DNA from: JAHJDO01 sp030671985 [NCBI: bacterium]
GTDB taxonomy: Bacteria > JAHJDO01
DNA length: 8,505 nucleotides
Direction: 5' to 3'
Assembly (NCBI GenBank): GCA_030671985.1
Contig: DAOVHI010000059.1
Span: forward strand, 1-8,505
Positions 1 to 8,505 of this stretch are shown here, piece by piece. The translations under genes and the position numbers were made by a program. How positions within the stretch are numbered: position 1 is the stretch's first letter; the number at the start of each line of letters is the position of its first letter. Below the pieces are notes generated by a model. That model was not told where the DNA came from, made no database searches, and saw nothing but the letters and a program-made list of their open reading frames with translations.

Positions 1-856
1 GTATCAAATGTACAAGTTTCGCACATTGGTCAGAAATGCAGATGCACAGCTGCGGGGAGAACTATTGGGTAGCCGCAGGGAACTCGTTACCGCTGCAGGA
101 AAGTTCTTGCGGGATACAAGACTTGACGAATTGCCGCAATTATGGAATGTATTGAAGCGCGACATGGATATGGTGGGACCGCGTCCTGTCCGTCCGGAGG
201 TTTACGAGCATCTGTGTAAAAACATCCCGAACTATGATCAACGTTTTGTTGTACGCCCCGCTCTTATCGGGATTTCGCAGCTTTTCACTCCTCACTCAAC
301 ACCAAAAGCCATCCGTTCTCATATCGATAATCACCTACTTAAGAGAAAAGAGGATGTCTTTTGGAACATCTCTGCCCTTGTTCTTACAACCTTCTTAGTG
401 ATACGATCTGTTATATCTCTCAGCATGCGCATTGTTTTTCGCAAATTGGTCTTACAAAAGTTTCTCGGACGATACAATGAAAAACGGATGTATGAACGCG
501 TCCCTCAAAAACAAGTCTCGGTTTATTCGCAGCTCAAAGAAGCGTCCGACGATTTCGAGTATGTGGGCAAGGCAATTGATATCAATCCCGAAGCATTTCT
601 CTTGCGCAGCAACCTAAATCTGGACAAGAATTTTCCCGGGGTGGTAAAGCTGAAAACAGAGATAAGATCGGAAGCAGAGATATGTGGGCTCGGCAAGAGA
701 TTAAATAAAACAAAACGAACATTTTGCAAGGGTAGCATCTATCGAAAAACACGGAAAGGAGATGATCTTTGGGATTATGTGATTATGTACCAGCCGCTAA
801 GTCCGCTCAATTTCTATCGAATCCACCAGTATTTCCTTTCTGAGAGCATGGCATAA
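1..856 (+). CDS. Polyprenyl-phosphate sugar-1-phosphate transferase with C-terminal PilZ-like domain, 5'-truncated
   Basis: This is the initiating enzyme of lipid-linked glycan assembly. It would transfer a sugar phosphate from a nucleotide sugar to undecaprenyl phosphate at the cytoplasmic membrane face. The frame is open to the left edge (first full codon at base 2). The ATG at base 8 is internal, because YKFRT just after it is a conserved motif that normally lies well inside the domain. Counting from that Met, the bacterial sugar transferase signatures are RLDELPQ (38-44, with the Asp-Glu dyad at 40-41), GPRPV (57-61) and a divergent RPALIG (83-88), where the family usually has RPGITG. The transferase domain ends in a hydrophobic stretch near 117-145. 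About 135 further residues follow, which this family normally lacks, and they resemble a PilZ domain. Any N-terminal membrane part, and hence the WcaJ-like or PglC-like class, lies outside the window. Family call firm; substrate unknown. Confidence 0.9.
   Translation, partial: YQMYKFRTLVRNADAQLRGELLGSRRELVTAAGKFLRDTRLDELPQLWNVLKRDMDMVGPRPVRPEVYEHLCKNIPNYDQRFVVRPALIGISQLFTPHSTPKAIRSHIDNHLLKRKEDVFWNISALVLTTFLVIRSVISLSMRIVFRKLVLQKFLGRYNEKRMYERVPQKQVSVYSQLKEASDDFEYVGKAIDINPEAFLLRSNLNLDKNFPGVVKLKTEIRSEAEICGLGKRLNKTKRTFCKGSIYRKTRKGDDLWDYVIMYQPLSPLNFYRIHQYFLSESMA
485..841 (+). other. PilZ-like domain in the C-terminal extension of the sugar transferase
   Basis: PilZ domains are small beta-barrels that bind cyclic di-GMP through an RxxxR motif and a following D/N-x-S-x-x-G motif. 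Here RMYER (160-164, counted from the Met at base 8) fits RxxxR exactly. About 27 residues later, DINPEA (191-196) sits where DxSxxG is expected, but Ser is replaced by Asn and Gly by Ala. The rest follows the PilZ pattern: alternating beta-type segments (KQVSVY, YVGKAIDI, VVKLKTE, CKGSIYR, WDYVIMY) and a final helix after a PLSPLN turn (263-268). The fold assignment is inferred by eye. Ligand binding is uncertain because the second motif is degenerate. It could instead be a PilZ-derived protein-interaction module. Confidence 0.6.
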
Positions 857-860
857 ATAA

Positions 861-2144
861 ATGGAAAAAAACTTATTACACAAAGAGACCTTTTCCCTGC
901 ACAACCGTTTTCTGCCGCAGTTATTGTTTTATATGCTGGTATTTACTATTCCTTATTTCCAGTTGCGCCAGCTCTCTGCGGCTTATCAGTTCATGAAAAT
1001 CGACTGGCTGTTGACAATGATACTGGCTGTAATCATTATTCCTGATATAATGAACCGAAAGAGTATTCCTGAAAATCTCCAGTCAAATCTTTGGCCGTGG
1101 TTAGCTCTTTTTCTCGTTGTCAATCTGATTTCGTCACTTCTTTCTCCGTATCGCGGTCCTTGTTTTGCAAGGATTCTTAATCCTATCCTTGTCGGATACG
1201 TTTTTATCGCTTTGAGTATGCTTATGATCTCGAAAAAGGGGTTTGAAAAATATTTGCCTTTTACCTTGGCGTGGAGTATAGGGATAAATTCGTTCATGGG
1301 CTTTCTCGGATACTTTTTTCATTATACCCCATTTGTAGGCGAGCGCGGACGAGGATTTACCATCGGCGCCAACAACATGGCCCTGATGTGCGTATTCACA
1401 ATACCCTTACTGGTTCACCTAATATTTCATGCAAAAAACCGCAAAAACGCCATTGTTGCCACTCTGTTACTCATTGTCAATGTGCTTGGAGTAATCAGTT
1501 CGGCTTCCAGAGGAGGATTTCTCAGTCTGACGATTATTGCTTTATTGCTTTTATTTGAACTCAGACACCGTTTCCATCCCAGATATTTAGGTTTGGTTAT
1601 TGTTATTATAGGGATAGCAATGATCACCATTATAAACGTTGTTCCTGAACGCTATTTTCAGCGTCAGCAGACTATTCTGAAGGGCTCGGAGGCTGACAGG
1701 GCAACGAAACGACGAATGGGATATCTTATAGTCAGCTGGGATTCTATCAAAAAACACCCCCTGCTTGGCACCGGGACATTGAGTTTTAGAAATGTCTGGG
1801 TGAATTCTGAAATGGCTAGGTGGTTTGATATGGAGGAGCGCTCCGCTCACAATACATATATGGAGGTTTTGGTAGGAACGGGAATCATTGGATTCTTTTT
1901 CTTTATGATGCTTTTGTGGCAGACATTTTCCAACTTTACCAAAGCTCGGAGACTGTTTTCAGACTCTGGGCGGCATAGTATGGCCTCGCTTGCCTCTGCC
2001 TATCGGTTCTCCTTTATAGCTGTTACTATATACTTCCTGTTTAAAAGCGGCTTAGACCACAAACTGTTCCTCTTAGGCATTCCTTTATCTCAGGTGGCTC
2101 TTACATTGGCAGGCAAACATCTTCCTGAAAAAGAAAAATCGTGA
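861..2144 (+). CDS. O-antigen ligase/polymerase (Wzy/WaaL)-type membrane protein
   Basis: The 427-residue protein has many hydrophobic segments (for example near 20-33, 48-61, 79-94, 107-123, 173-189, 197-213, 219-233, 242-261, 335-353 and 384-396). This fits the 10-12 helix O-antigen ligase/polymerase superfamily. Family landmarks are SASRGG (214-219, with the conserved Arg), the RMGYLIVSWDSIKKHP block before LLGTGTLSF (286-309), and SAHNTYMEVLVGTG (328-341). The His of the last motif (330) matches the essential periplasmic-loop His of WaaL-type enzymes. Such proteins use undecaprenyl-diphosphate-linked glycans, either polymerising repeat units or transferring chains to an acceptor such as lipid A core or protein. 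The sequence alone does not separate these roles. Its place beside a priming transferase mildly favours a polymerase. It starts 4 bases after the previous stop. The only Shine-Dalgarno candidate, GAGAG at 842-846, is weak and distant, so coupling is likely. Confidence 0.85.
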   Translation: MEKNLLHKETFSLHNRFLPQLLFYMLVFTIPYFQLRQLSAAYQFMKIDWLLTMILAVIIIPDIMNRKSIPENLQSNLWPWLALFLVVNLISSLLSPYRGPCFARILNPILVGYVFIALSMLMISKKGFEKYLPFTLAWSIGINSFMGFLGYFFHYTPFVGERGRGFTIGANNMALMCVFTIPLLVHLIFHAKNRKNAIVATLLLIVNVLGVISSASRGGFLSLTIIALLLLFELRHRFHPRYLGLVIVIIGIAMITIINVVPERYFQRQQTILKGSEADRATKRRMGYLIVSWDSIKKHPLLGTGTLSFRNVWVNSEMARWFDMEERSAHNTYMEVLVGTGIIGFFFFMMLLWQTFSNFTKARRLFSDSGRHSMASLASAYRFSFIAVTIYFLFKSGLDHKLFLLGIPLSQVALTLAGKHLPEKEKS

Positions 2145-3322
2145 CGAACTTCCTGTTTGTTTTTTTTTACGGGATATTCTTTTTTTTTCTCCTTGGAATG
2201 ATGCTGGTATTCGTGCTCTATCCCTGTTTTCTCGCTTGCCGACTTCTCATTGCTTGTAGTTCAGTCAAATCATCCATCCTTATTTCTAAGTCTAAGCCCC
2301 TTCCCCGAGTCAGTATTATTACTGTTTCGCATAAGGCTGCCGAATTACTTGATGAAAAAATTAAGAACATACAGCAACTTGATTATCCTCACCATCTGTT
2401 GGAATTTGTTTTTTTTTCAGATGGCTCATCCGAAAACACTTGTGACATTCAGGCCCGCCTCCGGAATATTCAGGTAAAACAGCTCTTCTCAAAAACACAT
2501 CGGGGTAAAGCCTATGGATTGAACAGAGCAGTTGAGCAGAGTACCGGCGAAATCCTGGTCTTCTCCGATATTGATGCCATAATAAATAAAGGCGCAGTAA
2601 TTTTGCTGGTGAGTCATTTTCAAGACACAACTATAGGAGGAGTATGCGGTCATAGAGCCATTGCCAAAGAAAAGTCCTCTTTGCAAAGTGCCCAATCCCG
2701 CTATCTGGCTTTTGATAACCTGATTAAGTCCATGGAGGGCAGAACAGGAAGCCTGACTTCTAACGAAGGAAAACTCTACGCCATTCGCAGATCCCTGTTT
2801 CAGCCCATTGATCCGGCCGCTACAGATGATCTCTATAACTGTCTTTCGGTCGTGAAGGCCAAATACCGTTTCGTCTTTGAACCTGAGGCATATATGTATA
2901 TACGTTCTCCCTCCCGGTCACTAGGACATGAGATTCAACGGCGACGACGCATTGTAGCGCGCAGCTTGCACGGGATTGCCAAACATAAAGAAGTACTTAA
3001 CCCGGTAAAATTCGGTTGGTACTCCCCTGGATTATTCATCAATAAAATTCTCCGCAGGTGTCTTCCTGTCTTCTTGATGGGGATATTTCTGAGCACGCTT
3101 TTCCTTTCTTTGAGATCAGAGGTAATGCTGGTCATTTTGATACTTCAACTAGTTTTTTATGGCACAGCTTTACTCTATCCTTTGACAGCCAAGCGTTCTC
3201 CCAAGCTTGTATCCCTTATAACCTATTTTATTCTGGGAAATTACGGGACATTCTTAGGAATAATCGACTTTCTCACGGGAAAGCGAATCACTAAATGGAT
3301 CCCCATAAAATCAGATGAGTGA
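2141..3322 (+). CDS. Membrane-anchored family 2 glycosyltransferase
   Basis: This 393-residue protein has one N-terminal hydrophobic helix (about 4-30), a cytosolic GT-A domain, and two or three C-terminal membrane segments (about 307-324, 328-347, 356-377). That layout resembles the NodC/HasA/PgaC branch of GT2. Motifs visible are VSIITVSHK (57-65), SDGSSEN (93-99), FSDIDA (141-146, a DxD-type nucleotide-sugar and metal site), ATDD (227-230, the candidate catalytic base) and QRRRR (266-270). The last occupies the place of the QxxRW motif of processive synthases, with Trp replaced by Arg. It probably adds sugars to a lipid-linked acceptor or makes a short polymer, from an unknown UDP or GDP sugar. 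The GTG start shares GTGA with the preceding stop, a 4-base overlap typical of translational coupling. The gene contains three runs of nine T. Confidence 0.88.
   Translation: MTNFLFVFFYGIFFFFLLGMMLVFVLYPCFLACRLLIACSSVKSSILISKSKPLPRVSIITVSHKAAELLDEKIKNIQQLDYPHHLLEFVFFSDGSSENTCDIQARLRNIQVKQLFSKTHRGKAYGLNRAVEQSTGEILVFSDIDAIINKGAVILLVSHFQDTTIGGVCGHRAIAKEKSSLQSAQSRYLAFDNLIKSMEGRTGSLTSNEGKLYAIRRSLFQPIDPAATDDLYNCLSVVKAKYRFVFEPEAYMYIRSPSRSLGHEIQRRRRIVARSLHGIAKHKEVLNPVKFGWYSPGLFINKILRRCLPVFLMGIFLSTLFLSLRSEVMLVILILQLVFYGTALLYPLTAKRSPKLVSLITYFILGNYGTFLGIIDFLTGKRITKWIPIKSDE
2160..2188 (+). repeat. Two nine-T tracts in the 5' end of the GT2 gene
   Basis: T runs occupy 2160-2168 and 2180-2188, within the codons of the N-terminal Phe-rich membrane helix. 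Phe codons explain part of this, but TTT is used throughout rather than TTC, so two uninterrupted runs result. Such tracts are prone to polymerase slippage, and a one-base change here would abolish nearly the whole protein. Phase variation is only a possibility. Confidence 0.5.
2409..2417 (+). repeat. Third nine-T tract in the GT2 gene
   Basis: This run lies in the codons for residues 90-93, just before the SDGSS motif of the catalytic domain and outside any membrane helix. It has the same length as the two runs near the gene start. A slip here would remove the DxD site and everything after it. Confidence 0.5.
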
Positions 3323-4514
3323 ATCAATGACAGTATGCATATTAATCGGTTCTCTGGAACAGGGAGGAGCCCAAAGTATGGCTCTGCGTTTACTGGATAG
3401 TTTTCTGGCGCAGGGTTTGGATGTGTACCTTCTTACCCTGGACCGCAATGTAGAAATACCGATCCATTCAAAACGAATCATACACCTGAGTCAAGCCAAT
3501 GTATGCTGGGGAACCTTGCGCAAGGTTTTTATGGCACCAAGGCAATGGTTAAAGCTGCAGCAAACCCTTCAAAGACTTCACTGTCAGGTATTGATTAGTT
3601 TTATGGAGCGCGCCAATATCCTCAATATGCTCACGTTAGGAAAACTCCGACGTATCATTTCTATCCGCACCCATCTGTCCATAGCCTTGAGGAATAAATC
3701 TCCAATAAAACGAGGTCTTATCAGATTTTTCTATCCTCTTCTCCTCAGAAGGACGGGCGTCATTAATTTTAATTCCAAACAGGCAGCCGGTGATTTCCGC
3801 TCGCTGTTCGCCGTGGATGAGAAAAAGATATCCGTCATATACAATTATTGCGATCGGAAGAGCGCTCAGTCCTTGGCCAAGAAACCATTGCCCCATGACT
3901 ATGAAACCGTATTTAAGAATAGGGTGATAATCACCTGCGGCCGCCTTATCCGGATCAAAGGACATCGCTTTCTTATTCAGGCATTCAAAGAAGTGAGAAA
4001 ACATCATCCGGAGACTCGGCTGATTATTCTGGGAGATGGTCCGCTTAAAGAACAACTTGTCGATTTAACTCGTCAGCTGGAACTCGACGGAACAGTCTTC
4101 TTTCCCGGATATCAGGCTAACCCCTTTGCCTGGATGGCAAGAGCTGATCTCTTCGTCCTTCCATCCCTGACTGAAGGGTTTCCCAATGCCCTTTTAGAAG
4201 CCATGACTCTTGGCATTCCCGTTATTTCTACTGACTGTCCCAGCGGACCAAGAGAAATGCTGAGCAACAAAGACCACTTTGGCGAAAAAATCACAAAAAC
4301 ATATTATAGTCCACATGGGATACTAATACCTCGCCTTGATCGGAATTCAAAAAGCAATGTTTCGCTACCTGAGAGCTCGTTGACTTCCGCCATCATGAAG
4401 CTGCTTGAAGACGATAAGCTCAGAAGAAGATATGGACAAGCTGCTCAGGAAAGAACGAAAATGTTTTCATCGGAACACTGCCTTTACCAATGGAGATCAC
4501 TGATCCGATGTTAG
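3315..4514 (+). CDS. Family 4 glycosyltransferase (GT-B fold, WabH-like)
   Basis: This 399-residue soluble or peripheral enzyme has full GT4 architecture. The N-terminal acceptor domain begins at the first beta strand (TVCILIGSL) and carries GGAQ (17-20). The C-terminal nucleotide-sugar domain carries GRLIRIKG (209-216, with phosphate-binding Arg and Lys), IILGDGPL (237-244) and EGFPNALLE (287-295, the EX7E motif with Glu 287 and 295). CPSGPREML follows (308-316), a sequence type I associate with hexose and HexNAc transferases of surface-glycan loci. It is retaining and most likely extends the lipid-linked oligosaccharide in the cytoplasm. Donor and linkage are unknown. The chosen ATG overlaps the previous gene by 8 bases. 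An ATG at 3327 (giving MTVCILIG) is equally plausible, since neither start has a clear ribosome binding site. Confidence 0.9.
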   Translation: MSESMTVCILIGSLEQGGAQSMALRLLDSFLAQGLDVYLLTLDRNVEIPIHSKRIIHLSQANVCWGTLRKVFMAPRQWLKLQQTLQRLHCQVLISFMERANILNMLTLGKLRRIISIRTHLSIALRNKSPIKRGLIRFFYPLLLRRTGVINFNSKQAAGDFRSLFAVDEKKISVIYNYCDRKSAQSLAKKPLPHDYETVFKNRVIITCGRLIRIKGHRFLIQAFKEVRKHHPETRLIILGDGPLKEQLVDLTRQLELDGTVFFPGYQANPFAWMARADLFVLPSLTEGFPNALLEAMTLGIPVISTDCPSGPREMLSNKDHFGEKITKTYYSPHGILIPRLDRNSKSNVSLPESSLTSAIMKLLEDDKLRRRYGQAAQERTKMFSSEHCLYQWRSLIRC

Positions 4515-5251
4515 ATCAGAAACAGTTGGATTATTTCCACAAAAGACAAGGCAAAATAATTAGTTTTTGGTCAAGATTAGGGGGGAAGCCTGACTTTAGA
4601 GACGCTCATGTTCTGGAGATTGGATGCGGATATGGCCAATTATGCCTCGACGTGGCTCTATCCGGAGCAAAAAAAGTTGTAGGAATAGACATCAACCCCA
4701 GATGTACTGAATTTGCTAATGACTATCTAACAACGTACTATCCGGAAATCGAGAATAAAATTGACTTTTTAAATACTGATTTAATGAGTTACAATAAACA
4801 AAATTGTTTTGACTATATAATTTCCGAGGACACTTTTGAACATATAATGAATCTTGGGGAAGAACTGGAGAAAATGCACAAAACGCTTAAGAGAAGAGGA
4901 AAGCTTTATGCTGGTTTTGGTCCGCTTTACAGAAGCCCTTACGGGGGACACAAGAGAATGAAAATGCCGATTCCGTGGGGACACTTAATCTTCCCCGAAT
5001 CAATGCTAATGAAATGGGTGAGCATGCGCAGAAAAGAGAAAATAAATTCTATTCGCGATCTCGGGCTTAATAAGATGTCTCTTGCCGATTACAAAAAGTT
5101 ATACAACAAAATGGAATGGACTGTTCTGTATTTCAAAGTAAATCATGGCGACAGGTTAATGTCTAAAATATTCTCGTGGATCTGTAAAATCTCGTTCGCG
5201 AAAGAGTATTTCAGTCATGACTTTTATTGCGTTTTAAAAAAGGATGATTAA
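4490..5251 (+). CDS. Class I SAM-dependent methyltransferase
   Basis: The 253-residue protein has the Rossmann methyltransferase core. Motif I is VLEIGCGYG (41-49). The acidic ribose-binding residue follows in VVGIDIN (63-69, Asp 66 or 68). A later strand reads DYIISEDTFEHI (108-119), and LKRRGKLYAGFGPLYRSP (133-150) ends near GGH. Together these suit the methyltransferase 11/23-type families common in glycan loci. It probably O- or N-methylates a sugar, which can decorate or cap a chain, but the substrate is not shown. The C-terminal 80 residues are basic and may bind acceptor or membrane. The ATG at 4490 overlaps the preceding gene by 25 bases. An ATG at 4508 overlaps by 7 and is preceded by GGAG at 4492-4495, so it is a strong alternative giving 247 residues. 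From here the operon becomes richer in A and T. Confidence 0.85.
   Translation: MEITDPMLDQKQLDYFHKRQGKIISFWSRLGGKPDFRDAHVLEIGCGYGQLCLDVALSGAKKVVGIDINPRCTEFANDYLTTYYPEIENKIDFLNTDLMSYNKQNCFDYIISEDTFEHIMNLGEELEKMHKTLKRRGKLYAGFGPLYRSPYGGHKRMKMPIPWGHLIFPESMLMKWVSMRRKEKINSIRDLGLNKMSLADYKKLYNKMEWTVLYFKVNHGDRLMSKIFSWICKISFAKEYFSHDFYCVLKKDD
4492..4495 (+). promoter_or_regulatory. Candidate ribosome binding site for the alternative methyltransferase start at 4508
   Basis: GGAG lies 12 bases before the ATG at 4508, somewhat long but usable. The upstream ATG at 4490 has only a weak CGGAA 14 bases away. This slightly favours 4508 as the true start. Confidence 0.4.
5240..5244 (+). promoter_or_regulatory. 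Ribosome binding site of the second GT2 gene
   Basis: AAGGA lies 10 bases before the ATG at 5255, inside the last codons of the methyltransferase gene. It supports the ATG at 5255, 3 bases beyond the upstream stop, as the start. Confidence 0.6.
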
Positions 5252-5254
5252 GAA

Positions 5255-6208
5255 ATGGAACTCAAAATAAGCGCTATAATCCCTACCTATAATAGACCTC
5301 AAGATTTAACAAATTGCATCCAGTCAATTTTAGATCAGTCAGTCAGGCCTGATGAAATAATTGTTATTGATGACGGCAACCTCAACGAAGTCCCTCTCAA
5401 ATCGAAGTGCAAGCAAAACGGAATTGATTTTAAATATGCGAAGAAAAAAGTTCCGGGAGTCACTCAGTCGCGAAACATGGGAGTTCGTCTCTCAATAGGA
5501 GATATTATTTTTCTTCTTGAGGACGACATTGTCTTGTTTAATGATTTCTTTGAACAAATTATACAAACTTATAAGAAGCATTCCAATGAGCTAATTGGAG
5601 GAGTAGGCGGAGTCATTCACAACATTGATTTTTCCAAAACCGAAAAAAGAATCCTGAGATTTCTTTATCAGATATTTTTGCTCACGGGACCTCATGAAGG
5701 GAAAATTCTTCGTTCCGGATTCAGTACGGATTATGGACAAACCAAATCTCCTTTAAAAGGAGTTCATAAGGTTGATTTTCTTCCGGGCGGCGGCAGTGCT
5801 TTTCGAAAAGAGGTGTTTGGTTCTTTTCAGTTTTCAGAGAAATATCAAACTCAGAGCGGGTATGGTCAAGGCGAAGATAAAGAGTTTTCTTATCGAGTTT
5901 CAAAGCGGTACAGCCTATTGATTAACACAAAAGCTCGTTTTTATCATTATCCGGCAAAGAAGACCGGACATGACAAATTTATCAAAGGAAAATCATTTGT
6001 CTTGTCCAGATATTTTTTCTTTAATGAGTGTGTCAAAAAAAGACCTGTTGATTGGATCTACTATATTTACGCAGTGACTGGATACCTCCTTATCAGAACA
6101 TGCATCTTGATGTTATCGATGAAAAGAACAGAATATGATCGAGTTAAAGGAATACTTTCGGCAGTGAAAGAAATTCTCTTTAAACGAACAAAATTAAAGG
6201 GGATATAA
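5255..6208 (+). CDS. Family 2 glycosyltransferase
   Basis: This 317-residue inverting enzyme has a GT-A fold. The N-terminal half carries AIIPTYNRP (7-15), VIDDG (37-41), TQSRNMGV (70-77) and LEDDIV (88-93, the DxD-type metal and nucleotide-sugar site). The acceptor half has FLPGGGSAFRKEVF (175-188) and GYGQGEDKEFSYR (202-214), where Glu-Asp is the candidate catalytic base. A hydrophobic stretch at about 267-288 (WIYYIYAV, YLLIRTCILML) may tether it to the membrane. It is expected to add one sugar to the growing lipid-linked oligosaccharide; the donor cannot be told. Start and spacing are well supported by the AAGGA site. It has an ordinary length and no missing motif, and differs from the first GT2 in lacking an N-terminal helix and a cluster of C-terminal helices. 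Confidence 0.9.
   Translation: MELKISAIIPTYNRPQDLTNCIQSILDQSVRPDEIIVIDDGNLNEVPLKSKCKQNGIDFKYAKKKVPGVTQSRNMGVRLSIGDIIFLLEDDIVLFNDFFEQIIQTYKKHSNELIGGVGGVIHNIDFSKTEKRILRFLYQIFLLTGPHEGKILRSGFSTDYGQTKSPLKGVHKVDFLPGGGSAFRKEVFGSFQFSEKYQTQSGYGQGEDKEFSYRVSKRYSLLINTKARFYHYPAKKTGHDKFIKGKSFVLSRYFFFNECVKKRPVDWIYYIYAVTGYLLIRTCILMLSMKRTEYDRVKGILSAVKEILFKRTKLKGI
6198..6203 (+). promoter_or_regulatory. Ribosome binding site that fixes a TTG start
   Basis: AGGGGA ends 6 bases before the TTG at 6210, inside the last codons of the upstream GT2 gene. The next in-frame Met (residue 32) is past the first beta strand of the protein, so this site strongly supports TTG as the start codon. Confidence 0.75.
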
Positions 6209-6209
6209 C

Positions 6210-7343
6210 TTGAAATTTATTTCATTTAAAAAAAATAAGGTGCTTATCATTCTTAATTCTTTGCTCATTAATGCCGGAGTTGAGAGACGAACGTTGGAGC
6301 TAATGATTTATTTAAGAGAAAAAGATTATGACGTGGAGGTTTGTGTACTTCGAAAGCTTATTAGAGAAAGGGTGGAAGTATATCAGGCAAAGGGCTTCGT
6401 AGTACACTTCATCCCCGTGTATTATAGTAAAAAAGGTCAAAAAACCCGTGGTTATGTAAAAAACTTTCTTAAGTTTTATAGATTTCTTTTTGCTCAAAAA
6501 TACGGAATTATCCTGTGCGCTCAGCCTATATCGCACTATTTTGGCCGGCTAGCGAGTTTTCCGCCTATGGGCAGAAAAATAGTGGCAATGGAACGCGGAG
6601 GACCCATTCACAGGCGACCTCGTAAGAAGCTGTTACTAGACTGGTTATGTGCAAAATGGACACATAAAATCGTTTGTGTTTCAATCTATCTGCGAGATGT
6701 TATTGTGAATAAGGCTCGAATAAAGCCTGAGAAAGTGATCGTTATTGAAGATGGAATACGTAAGGAACCAGTGCAAGACTTACAAAACAAACTGCGGGAA
6801 AGAATTGCCGATCGTTTTGTTTTTGGAAATATGGGAATGCTAATTCCCACGAAGCGGCAGAGTGTTCTAATTAGAGCTTTCTCCCTAATTTTGGGAGTGC
6901 ATCCGAATTGCATCCTCATTCTCGTAGGAGGCGGCGAGGACGAGCGAAAACTGAAAGAACTGGTTGAACAACTAAAGCTGGAAGATAGTGTGATATTTAC
7001 AGGACATCAGCAGTATCCACACGACTTTTATCCCCTGTTTGATGCCTTTGTCTTTCCTTCTGTTATAGAAGGATTTCCTAACGCAGTTGTGGAGGCATGG
7101 CTTCACTTCCTTCCGGTTATTTGTGCTAATTTAAGACCTATGAACGATTACGTTAAACATAATTATAATGGACTGCTTTTTGAGACGGATAACGAGGAGA
7201 CCCTTGCTGAAAAAATGAAACAGCTTATTGGAAAAAAGGAATTAATAATGAAGCTGGGTCAAAACGGACGTAAGACGGCCGAAAAAAAATTCGACTTTAA
7301 TACCCAACTCAGAAAAATCGAAGCTGTATTGGTACCTGATTAA
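6210..7343 (+). CDS. Family 4 glycosyltransferase with TTG start
   Basis: The 377-residue enzyme has GT-B architecture. The acceptor domain starts with KVLIILNSL (10-18) and AGVERRTLEL (22-31), where the usual GGxE/GGAQ loop is reduced to AGVE. The donor domain has GNMGMLIPTKRQ (206-217, with the conserved Lys), ILILVGGGEDERKL (235-248) and EGFPNAVVE (287-295, the EX7E motif). It probably adds a late sugar to the lipid-linked oligosaccharide; donor and linkage are unknown. It resembles the GT4 at 3315 in motif spelling and spacing (both EX7E motifs at 287-295), but the flanking sequences differ, so the two are not recent duplicates. It is the last plus-strand gene of the block, starting 1 base after the GT2 stop. 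A run of eight A codes for the Lys-rich end near 357-360. Confidence 0.9.
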   Translation: MKFISFKKNKVLIILNSLLINAGVERRTLELMIYLREKDYDVEVCVLRKLIRERVEVYQAKGFVVHFIPVYYSKKGQKTRGYVKNFLKFYRFLFAQKYGIILCAQPISHYFGRLASFPPMGRKIVAMERGGPIHRRPRKKLLLDWLCAKWTHKIVCVSIYLRDVIVNKARIKPEKVIVIEDGIRKEPVQDLQNKLRERIADRFVFGNMGMLIPTKRQSVLIRAFSLILGVHPNCILILVGGGEDERKLKELVEQLKLEDSVIFTGHQQYPHDFYPLFDAFVFPSVIEGFPNAVVEAWLHFLPVICANLRPMNDYVKHNYNGLLFETDNEETLAEKMKQLIGKKELIMKLGQNGRKTAEKKFDFNTQLRKIEAVLVPD

Positions 7344-7353
7344 TGTTGAGAGA

Positions 7354-8160
7354 TTATTTTGAATTTTTATATTGCTTTATCAAGTCGGCGACGGCCTTAT
7401 ATAAGCTTATAATATTTCTATGAGATCTCTGCAAGAATCTAATCTTTATTATATTCAAAGGAACCACTTGTGAATATCTTTCAAGCCTCCGATTAGAGAT
7501 ATCGTCTTTAATAAATGACTCCTCATCAAACCACTTACAATCATTATACCAAGTCCAGCATTCGTGTTTCCGATATATGCTTTTTATGTGTTCAGCTAAT
7601 TTTTTATCGATGACTAGAGTTATATAGTCGTAATGCCGCTTAAATACGTATTCTGTCATTAACTTAAATGATTTATTACTGGTATAATTTGTAAACCACA
7701 GATTGAAATTATGCTTTTTTTGTACTTCGCTTACAGCCTTGTATACTTGTATATGCTCTTCATTTCCGTACCCACCCCACGGATTATGCGTGAATACATT
7801 TTTGCAGTTTTTCAGCTTGTCTGTAAGCTTATCAATTAATAGATCGTAATTATTTTTATACTTTTTAGAAACTATAGGATTATTATATATCTTGATTCCA
7901 AATTTGGTGAGTACGGGATTGACAAAAGATGTAGCATTGCGAACATCTATTTCCTCAAGACCAAAGAAAGAGATGTTCTTCAAAGGATGTTCATATAGCA
8001 TTTTCCTCCTCCCTGTGGTCAGAATAGGATTTGAAGCAGAGGGAAGAAAGCATACCACAACTTCATCCACCTCTTTCAGTATTGAACTGAACCATAGAAT
8101 CTCATCATCCGGGTGCGCTGAGATGATAATTGATTTTTCAAAAATTTTACTCGGAGACAT
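7354..8160 (-). CDS. PIG-L/LmbE-family deacetylase
   Basis: This 268-residue protein belongs to the zinc-dependent GlcNAc-PI de-N-acetylase/LmbE/MshB family. These enzymes remove acetyl groups from N-acetylated sugars or related substrates. After a short leader it has SAHPDDE (14-20). In this motif His 16 and Asp 19 are expected zinc ligands and Asp 18 the base. A second block, THNPWGGYGNEEH (124-136), supplies the third zinc ligand, His 136. Both catalytic blocks are intact and no secretion signal is evident, so it is probably an active cytoplasmic enzyme acting on a nucleotide sugar or lipid-linked glycan. The gene is clearly richer in A and T than its neighbours (sampled 60-base lines hold 25-32% GC). 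It follows a GT4 gene by 26 bases and is probably co-transcribed. The substrate is inferred only from context. Confidence 0.88.
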   Translation of the reverse strand: MSPSKIFEKSIIISAHPDDEILWFSSILKEVDEVVVCFLPSASNPILTTGRRKMLYEHPLKNISFFGLEEIDVRNATSFVNPVLTKFGIKIYNNPIVSKKYKNNYDLLIDKLTDKLKNCKNVFTHNPWGGYGNEEHIQVYKAVSEVQKKHNFNLWFTNYTSNKSFKLMTEYVFKRHYDYITLVIDKKLAEHIKSIYRKHECWTWYNDCKWFDEESFIKDDISNRRLERYSQVVPLNIIKIRFLQRSHRNIISLYKAVADLIKQYKNSK

Positions 8161-8165
8161 CTAAA

Positions 8166-8172
8166 TCCTTCC
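8166..8172 (-). promoter_or_regulatory. Strong ribosome binding site of the deacetylase gene
   Basis: On the minus strand GGAAGGA stands 5 bases before the ATG at 8160. It is the best Shine-Dalgarno sequence in the window and confirms the start. It lies in the 26-base gap after the upstream GT4 gene, so the deacetylase can be translated independently. Confidence 0.8.
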
Positions 8173-8186
8173 AAAGAAAGTTTGTT

Positions 8187-8505
8187 TCAATGTCCTAAAC
8201 ATTTACAATAAAGTTCTGCCACTTGATCAGCGCATTTATCCCATGAAAACCCCATCGCTCGCTTAATTCCCTTTTGCGCCATAGATTCGACATCTAATAT
8301 TTCGTCTTCAAAATTCTTCATCGCATTGAACCATTCAGACGGTTCAGTTGCAGAAACATACAAAGGCGCATCCCCTCCAACTTCAGGCAGCGATGTTGCT
8401 TTTGTTGTTACAACAGGGACTCCGCACGCCATTCCTTCCAGAACCGGCAAACCAAATCCCTCGTAAGAAGATGGACAAAACAAAGCTGTTGCTCCACAAT
8501 AAAGA
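8187..8505 (-). CDS. Family 4 glycosyltransferase, C-terminal part only (cut by window edge)
   Basis: Only the last 105 residues are visible. The frame stays open to the right edge, with [12 protein letters not shown] upstream of the first candidate start, and that candidate (TTG at 8483) is an internal Leu codon. The donor-domain signature is clear: [18 protein letters not shown] (EX7E motif), then [19 protein letters not shown], typical of mannosyltransferase- and WbaZ/RfaG-like GT4 enzymes. The tail ends in [16 protein letters not shown]. It probably adds a sugar to the same glycan as the plus-strand genes. Donor and acceptor are unknown. One sampled line (8341-8400) has about 52% GC, much above the following deacetylase gene. 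Confidence 0.88.

Follow-up and report, generated by a model that had tools for sequence, protein, structure and literature searches.

Can the first step of glycan assembly be governed by a domain fused to the very enzyme that catalyses it? The question is raised by the gene at the start of this locus. The window, a stretch of 8,505 nucleotides, is the whole of one contig of a draft assembly that totals 1.25 Mb in 152 contigs and is 92% complete. Its first open frame joins a sugar transferase core to a C-terminal extension that a sequence-only reading had compared with PilZ domains, proposing that c-di-GMP, or some partner protein should the domain no longer bind it, may control whether chains are started. 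The answer depends on whether the fusion is real, on what the extension resembles and on the input to which it may respond.

The priming enzyme and its glycan locus

The frame at 2..856 (+) encodes 284 residues with no stop before its end; it is open at its 5′ end, since the window is an entire contig whose first base falls within the gene. No overlapping contig supplying this end was found when the first 150 bases were compared with the genome itself (besides self, an 18-base match, E 0.3). Residues 1–133 match the Bac_transf family (PF02397, profile positions 49–177 of 179, E 1.5e-27) at 96.7 bits, above the curated cut-off of 27, while TIGR03025 was matched with an E value of 1.5e-28, yet under its curated cut-off (100 versus 296 bits). 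The Asp-Glu pair of RLDELPQ, which we take to be the catalytic residues of the active site, and the GPRP motif, here GPRPVRP, are present and unchanged in this and the two other fusion proteins described below. The enzyme core is a monotopic phosphoglycosyl transferase, which bears out the sugar-1-phosphate transferase with RLDELPQ and GPRPV recognised in the sequence-only reading; the continuation of this core into extra residues, about 150 of them before any stop, also held. An N-terminal re-entrant membrane helix is a trait of monotopic phosphoglycosyl transferases, and the part of the window gene that would hold it is cut off by the contig edge.

The window enzyme is probably of the small type, since both complete homologs have only Bac_transf above its Pfam cut-off. 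With the small PglC-type enzymes it shares the catalytic core with LDELPQ and GPRP, but the fusion proteins differ from these in their C-terminal extension and in an altered core motif, QLFTPHSTPK. This motif is identical in one homolog (L023, from genome G258), partly kept in the other as QAFMGHGTPK (L055, from Parasedimentitalea psychrophila) and absent from the core homologs compared (22 of 29 loci). All three fusion proteins have in common GPRPVRP and the altered stretch P.L.G..Q.F..H.TPK..R.

Table 1. Features of the window, with nucleotide positions, strand and the basis of each assignment
Feature	Position	Strand	Basis
Phosphoglycosyl transferase core (Bac_transf), C-terminal three quarters; N-terminus lost at contig edge	2..400	+	PF02397, TIGR03025
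RLDELPQ	119..139	+	Read from sequence; invariant in the three fusion proteins
QLFTPHSTPK, unusual core motif replacing the common GxTGxAQVxGRN-type stretch	278..307	+	Comparison with core homologs
Linker, probably helical	401..472	+	Helix 4–29 in the model of nt 410–853
PilZ-like C-terminal domain (tentative)	473..853	+	PilZ profile searches, shuffles
RMYER, RxxxR motif	485..499	+	Lies on RkyvR in the alignment with the PilZ profile
DINPEA, degraded counterpart of D/NxSxxG	578..595	+	Aligned to dISegG of the PilZ profile
Wzy_C / O-antigen ligase-like protein, starting 4 bases after the fusion stop	861..2144	+	PF04932, E 3.5e-18
Glycosyltransferase family 2	2141..3322	+	PF00535, E 1.9e-15
GT4, methyltransferase, GT2 and GT4 of the glycan locus	3315..7343	+	Pfam
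PIG-L protein and GT4 fragment	Downstream of the fusion gene	-	Pfam

The window is a glycan gene cluster (Table 1), in which Rfam gave nothing over its gathering score. GC content per gene is 0.42–0.45 in the first four genes, 0.34–0.39 in the next four and 0.44 in the last fragment, a step along positions 1–8505 that gives the locus the look of a mosaic. The first half of the contig has a GC content of 0.43 against 0.37–0.40 in eight other contigs of the genome, and the window has a tetranucleotide correlation of 0.49 to the rest, close to the lower limit of the 0.48–0.67 found for those eight contigs. Either acquisition of the cluster or misbinning of the contig is possible.

Recurrence of the fusion

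When the full protein was compared with 385 genomes, 313 had matches; among the matches listed, beyond which weaker ones may lie, only the gene itself and one in G258 (contig C778) pass query residue 175. The latter, from another phylum, shares 39% identity over residues 1–283 and lies in a frame of 441 residues. A two-row profile of the motif plus the extension, run on 385 genomes around G258, found two of the 385, G258 itself and G018; the G018 match covers profile positions 1–58 only, in the core part. Of 72,556 plasmid records searched, 647 were matched, two of them at a place with at least 80% coverage. One of the two is a fusion on a complete plasmid of P. psychrophila QS115 (28% over residues 1–279; WP_286018299.1, annotated 'sugar transferase'); the second, a Sinorhizobium record (L056), has a frame that stops at the end of the core and was rejected as a fusion homolog. 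The motif and extension alone matched one of the 72,556 records (E ≤ 0.1). Both homologs align up to the end of the extension.

Other searches returned the core without the extension, or nothing. With the extension alone, tblastn on 144 genomes gave the gene itself as sole significant match. Four weaker matches (E 0.0055–0.022 together) were discarded: those in G001, G002 and G003 pass through stop codons, and that in G023 spans 55 residues inside a frame of 2678. L011 and L012 were likewise rejected as fusion homologs, their frames ending with the core. Viral contigs contained no fusion, one search giving no match and another four, each to query residues 1–116 or less. Profile searches of two further genome sets were empty (0/396 and 0/394) and show little, these sets being guessed to be Pseudomonadota with no known match among them. 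A frame of another kind was seen in genome G061 (L034:265-2157, minus strand): its 630 residues comprise a complete Bac_transf domain (residues 27–206) and about 420 residues without a Pfam match, hydrophobic where shown, so that it may join a priming enzyme to a membrane protein of polymerase- or ligase-like type.

The fusion of core and extension is real and more than chance. Its presence elsewhere, which the sequence-only reading had suggested looking for, was confirmed both in G258 and on the P. psychrophila plasmid; since the same fusion stands in G258 and on a complete plasmid, it is therefore neither a frameshift nor a misassembly, the objection that the same reading had itself named. 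A contig edge that cuts the gene and the deviating GC content of the first half of the contig would suit an artefact in which frameshift, misassembly or misbinning joined two genes, but two independent assemblies carry the fusion, and misbinning would alter the host only, so we consider an artefact very improbable. As the matches are few and lie in distant genomes, the fusion is either old or mobile. It is spread across three or more lineages, and these searches rarely met with it.

The surroundings of the fusion genes were also compared. In G258, the gene immediately upstream of the fusion encodes a relative of the window GT2 encoded at 2141..3322 (blastp, 29% over 365 aa, E 4e-44), and this common neighbour supports a shared cluster, though GT2 genes are common; the P. 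psychrophila genes compared gave no match to it. The P. psychrophila locus contains several sulfotransferases, and directly after its fusion gene is encoded a hypothetical protein of 2087 residues (L055:15970-22233) with weak Pfam matches, all below cut-off, one of them Ig-like.

The extension compared with PilZ domains

Cut for profile work, the extensions measure 115–144 residues in the three proteins, the aligned part being about 30 residues shorter in P. psychrophila. The RxxxR motif reported in the sequence-only reading, RMYER, is indeed present, and an RxxxR occupies the PilZ place in G258 as well (RVLQR), within a tail so rich in arginine that it holds five RxxxR in all. The P. psychrophila extension has RxxxR nowhere, leaving the motif in two of the three fusion proteins. 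The second c-di-GMP motif, D/NxSxxG, occurs in none of the three: the counterparts of DINPEA are DMNEEM in G258 and IDETHI in P. psychrophila. By comparison, the PilZ rows that we collected contain RxxxR somewhere in 41 of 44 cases and D/NxSxxG in 35 of 44 (five of the 44 rows are redundant).

Pfam did not detect a PilZ domain: PF07238, the profile by which the sequence-only reading had proposed to check the extension, gave no match at E ≤ 10 in the window protein or either homolog, its curated cut-off therefore not being reached. PilZ profiles were then built from loci of seven genomes, one from 37 own-genus domains and one of 44 rows (39 non-redundant). By HMMER, the window extension scored 7.4 bits on the 37-domain profile, with RMYER placed on RkyvR and DINPEA on dISegG, and 11 of 5000 shuffles reached its score. 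On the 44-row profile it scored 9.8 bits, and none of the 5000 shuffles reached the single-sequence score. Frames were also ranked by hmmsearch, using 813 distinct mechanical open frames of at least 100 residues, many of which are not genes (37 PilZ, 776 non-PilZ). The window protein came first of the 776 non-PilZ frames with the 44-row profile (8.0 bits, E 0.15; next 4.5) and again with the 39 non-redundant rows (6.3 bits, E 0.5; next 4.2). The 37 PilZ frames top this ranking, but nearly all of them sit in the profile, so their position is no test.

Profile–profile comparison with hhalign pointed the same way. Against the 44-row profile, the alignment of the three extensions reached 25.2 (probability 21%), where 400 column shuffles gave at most 18.5; against the 39 rows it reached 24.5, higher than every one of 400 shuffles; on the 37-domain profile it scored 17.0, with one of 400 shuffles higher. 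Its register matches at DIN/DIS and in the last strand. Taken alone, the sequence of the window frame ranked second of the 776 non-PilZ frames (24.0), behind one scoring 25.7 over 27 columns. Real PilZ domains score higher: the held-out L082, which is in no profile, reached 30 bits compared with 8.0 for the window protein, and by hhalign 43, 47 and 49 compared with 17.0, 25.2 and 24.5 for the alignment of the three extensions on the 37-domain, 44-row and 39-row profiles, while two PilZ domains of another phylum obtained 42.0 and 37.7 on the own-genus profile. Neither the G258 nor the P. psychrophila extension, alone or together, gave a signal with the PilZ profiles. In the reciprocal direction, a profile built from the three extensions failed to single out PilZ frames (best 1.6 bits), whose mean score exceeded that of the others by a small margin (rank test, p 0.002), and it matched no chain in the PDB; sequence searches of the PDB gave nothing meaningful.

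Two single-sequence models of the extension, with mean pLDDT of 49.6 and 44.5, were too poor to show any fold. Foldseek on the second gave no match at E ≤ 0.001 and no entry named PilZ among the best 50 of 417 rows, although a model of this quality counts neither way. In the model of nt 410–853, from which the linker is read as helical, pLDDT was 80 and 74 in the first two ten-residue blocks and 45 in the third. The 'PilZ-like strand pattern' of the sequence-only reading thus goes unseen by Pfam and is weakly seen by lineage-specific PilZ profiles, for the window sequence only. Of the two observations that this reading had named as jointly refuting a PilZ domain, the missing profile hit was obtained, but no predicted fold other than the PilZ barrel.

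Weighing these results, we judge that the extension probably has a PilZ-type fold. The main competitor, to which we attach a smaller though substantial probability, is that the extension is a beta-rich domain with no relation to PilZ, for example a dimerisation, lipid-binding or sugar-binding module specific to this subfamily. In its favour, all three extensions lack any Pfam match, two of the three proteins carry no PilZ signal, the reciprocal search came back nearly empty, a held-out PilZ domain scores far above the window protein and the aligned part is shorter in P. psychrophila. Against it stand the first place of the window protein among the 776 non-PilZ frames with PilZ profiles in HMMER, a score on the 44-row profile that beats 5000 shuffles, and the register with both motif sites.

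Input and place of the putative control

Both genomes concerned have matches to domains of c-di-GMP signalling, three GGDEF and seven PilZ in that of the window and eight GGDEF and two PilZ in G258. Together with the RxxxR at the PilZ place in both proteins, these matches speak for a true c-di-GMP receptor that would open or shut the priming step, and direct gating by c-di-GMP is possible for the window and G258 proteins. Binding by the extension is nevertheless doubtful, because RxxxR is missing in P. psychrophila and D/NxSxxG in all three proteins. Moreover, in the arginine-rich tail of G258 one RxxxR in place is weak evidence, and the PilZ fold on which a receptor would depend is itself tentative. 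We therefore regard the receptor as unlikely, and hold equally low the chance that these priming enzymes form a subfamily, rare and widely scattered, whose fused PilZ domain lets c-di-GMP decide whether polysaccharide chains are started at all. Judged by the motifs, the extension more likely contacts a partner protein or the core itself than c-di-GMP. Of the control proposed in the sequence-only reading, the c-di-GMP part is weakened and the partner part has gained.

Covalent attachment of PilZ domains to other proteins does occur in this genome, where one is fused to an ABC-transporter ATPase (395 aa; L004:724-1908, minus strand) and another to a PTS EIIA domain (284 aa; L005:1483-2334, minus strand).

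The extension is best read as a PilZ-like regulatory or scaffolding domain on a priming enzyme, more probably responsive to a partner than to c-di-GMP. In the full form of this explanation, which we put at close to an even chance, a small-type monotopic phosphoglycosyl transferase primes an exported polysaccharide under a PilZ-descended C-terminal domain that controls or places priming. The core would prime the repeat unit, the covalently attached domain would descend from a PilZ barrel, and it may act by docking, either on the core at the membrane or on a partner within the export machinery. The usual input would probably be a protein partner, given that all three proteins have a degraded form of one c-di-GMP motif and that one of them has lost the other.

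BcsA and Alg44 are polysaccharide synthases regulated through PilZ at the polymerisation step. The window enzyme resembles them in having a PilZ-like domain on a glycan enzyme, where theirs lies on or beside it, but it starts the chain, and its c-di-GMP motifs are incomplete. Among the papers listed, none describes a fusion of PilZ to a priming enzyme in its title or at the start of its abstract; a 2021 survey of monotopic phosphoglycosyl transferase fusions may list it.

PMC12802240 names few cases of post-translational control of priming enzymes. It reports that in Myxococcus xanthus phosphorylated EpsW activates the large monotopic phosphoglycosyl transferase EpsZ, and it mentions, citing the 2021 survey (O'Toole 2021), that regulatory domains, receiver domains for instance, may be present on small enzymes. 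The EpsZ–EpsW pair likewise places post-translational control on a priming enzyme, but through a separate response regulator acting on a large enzyme, whereas here the PilZ-like domain is fused. The same paper argues that, since priming consumes undecaprenyl phosphate and peptidoglycan synthesis needs this carrier too, control at priming saves more than control at polymerisation (PMC12802240).

As the domain is fused to the enzyme itself and occurs on a plasmid of P. psychrophila QS115, the question is directly testable. If true, c-di-GMP-gated priming would place control at a step ahead of PilZ-regulated glycan synthases such as BcsA and Alg44.
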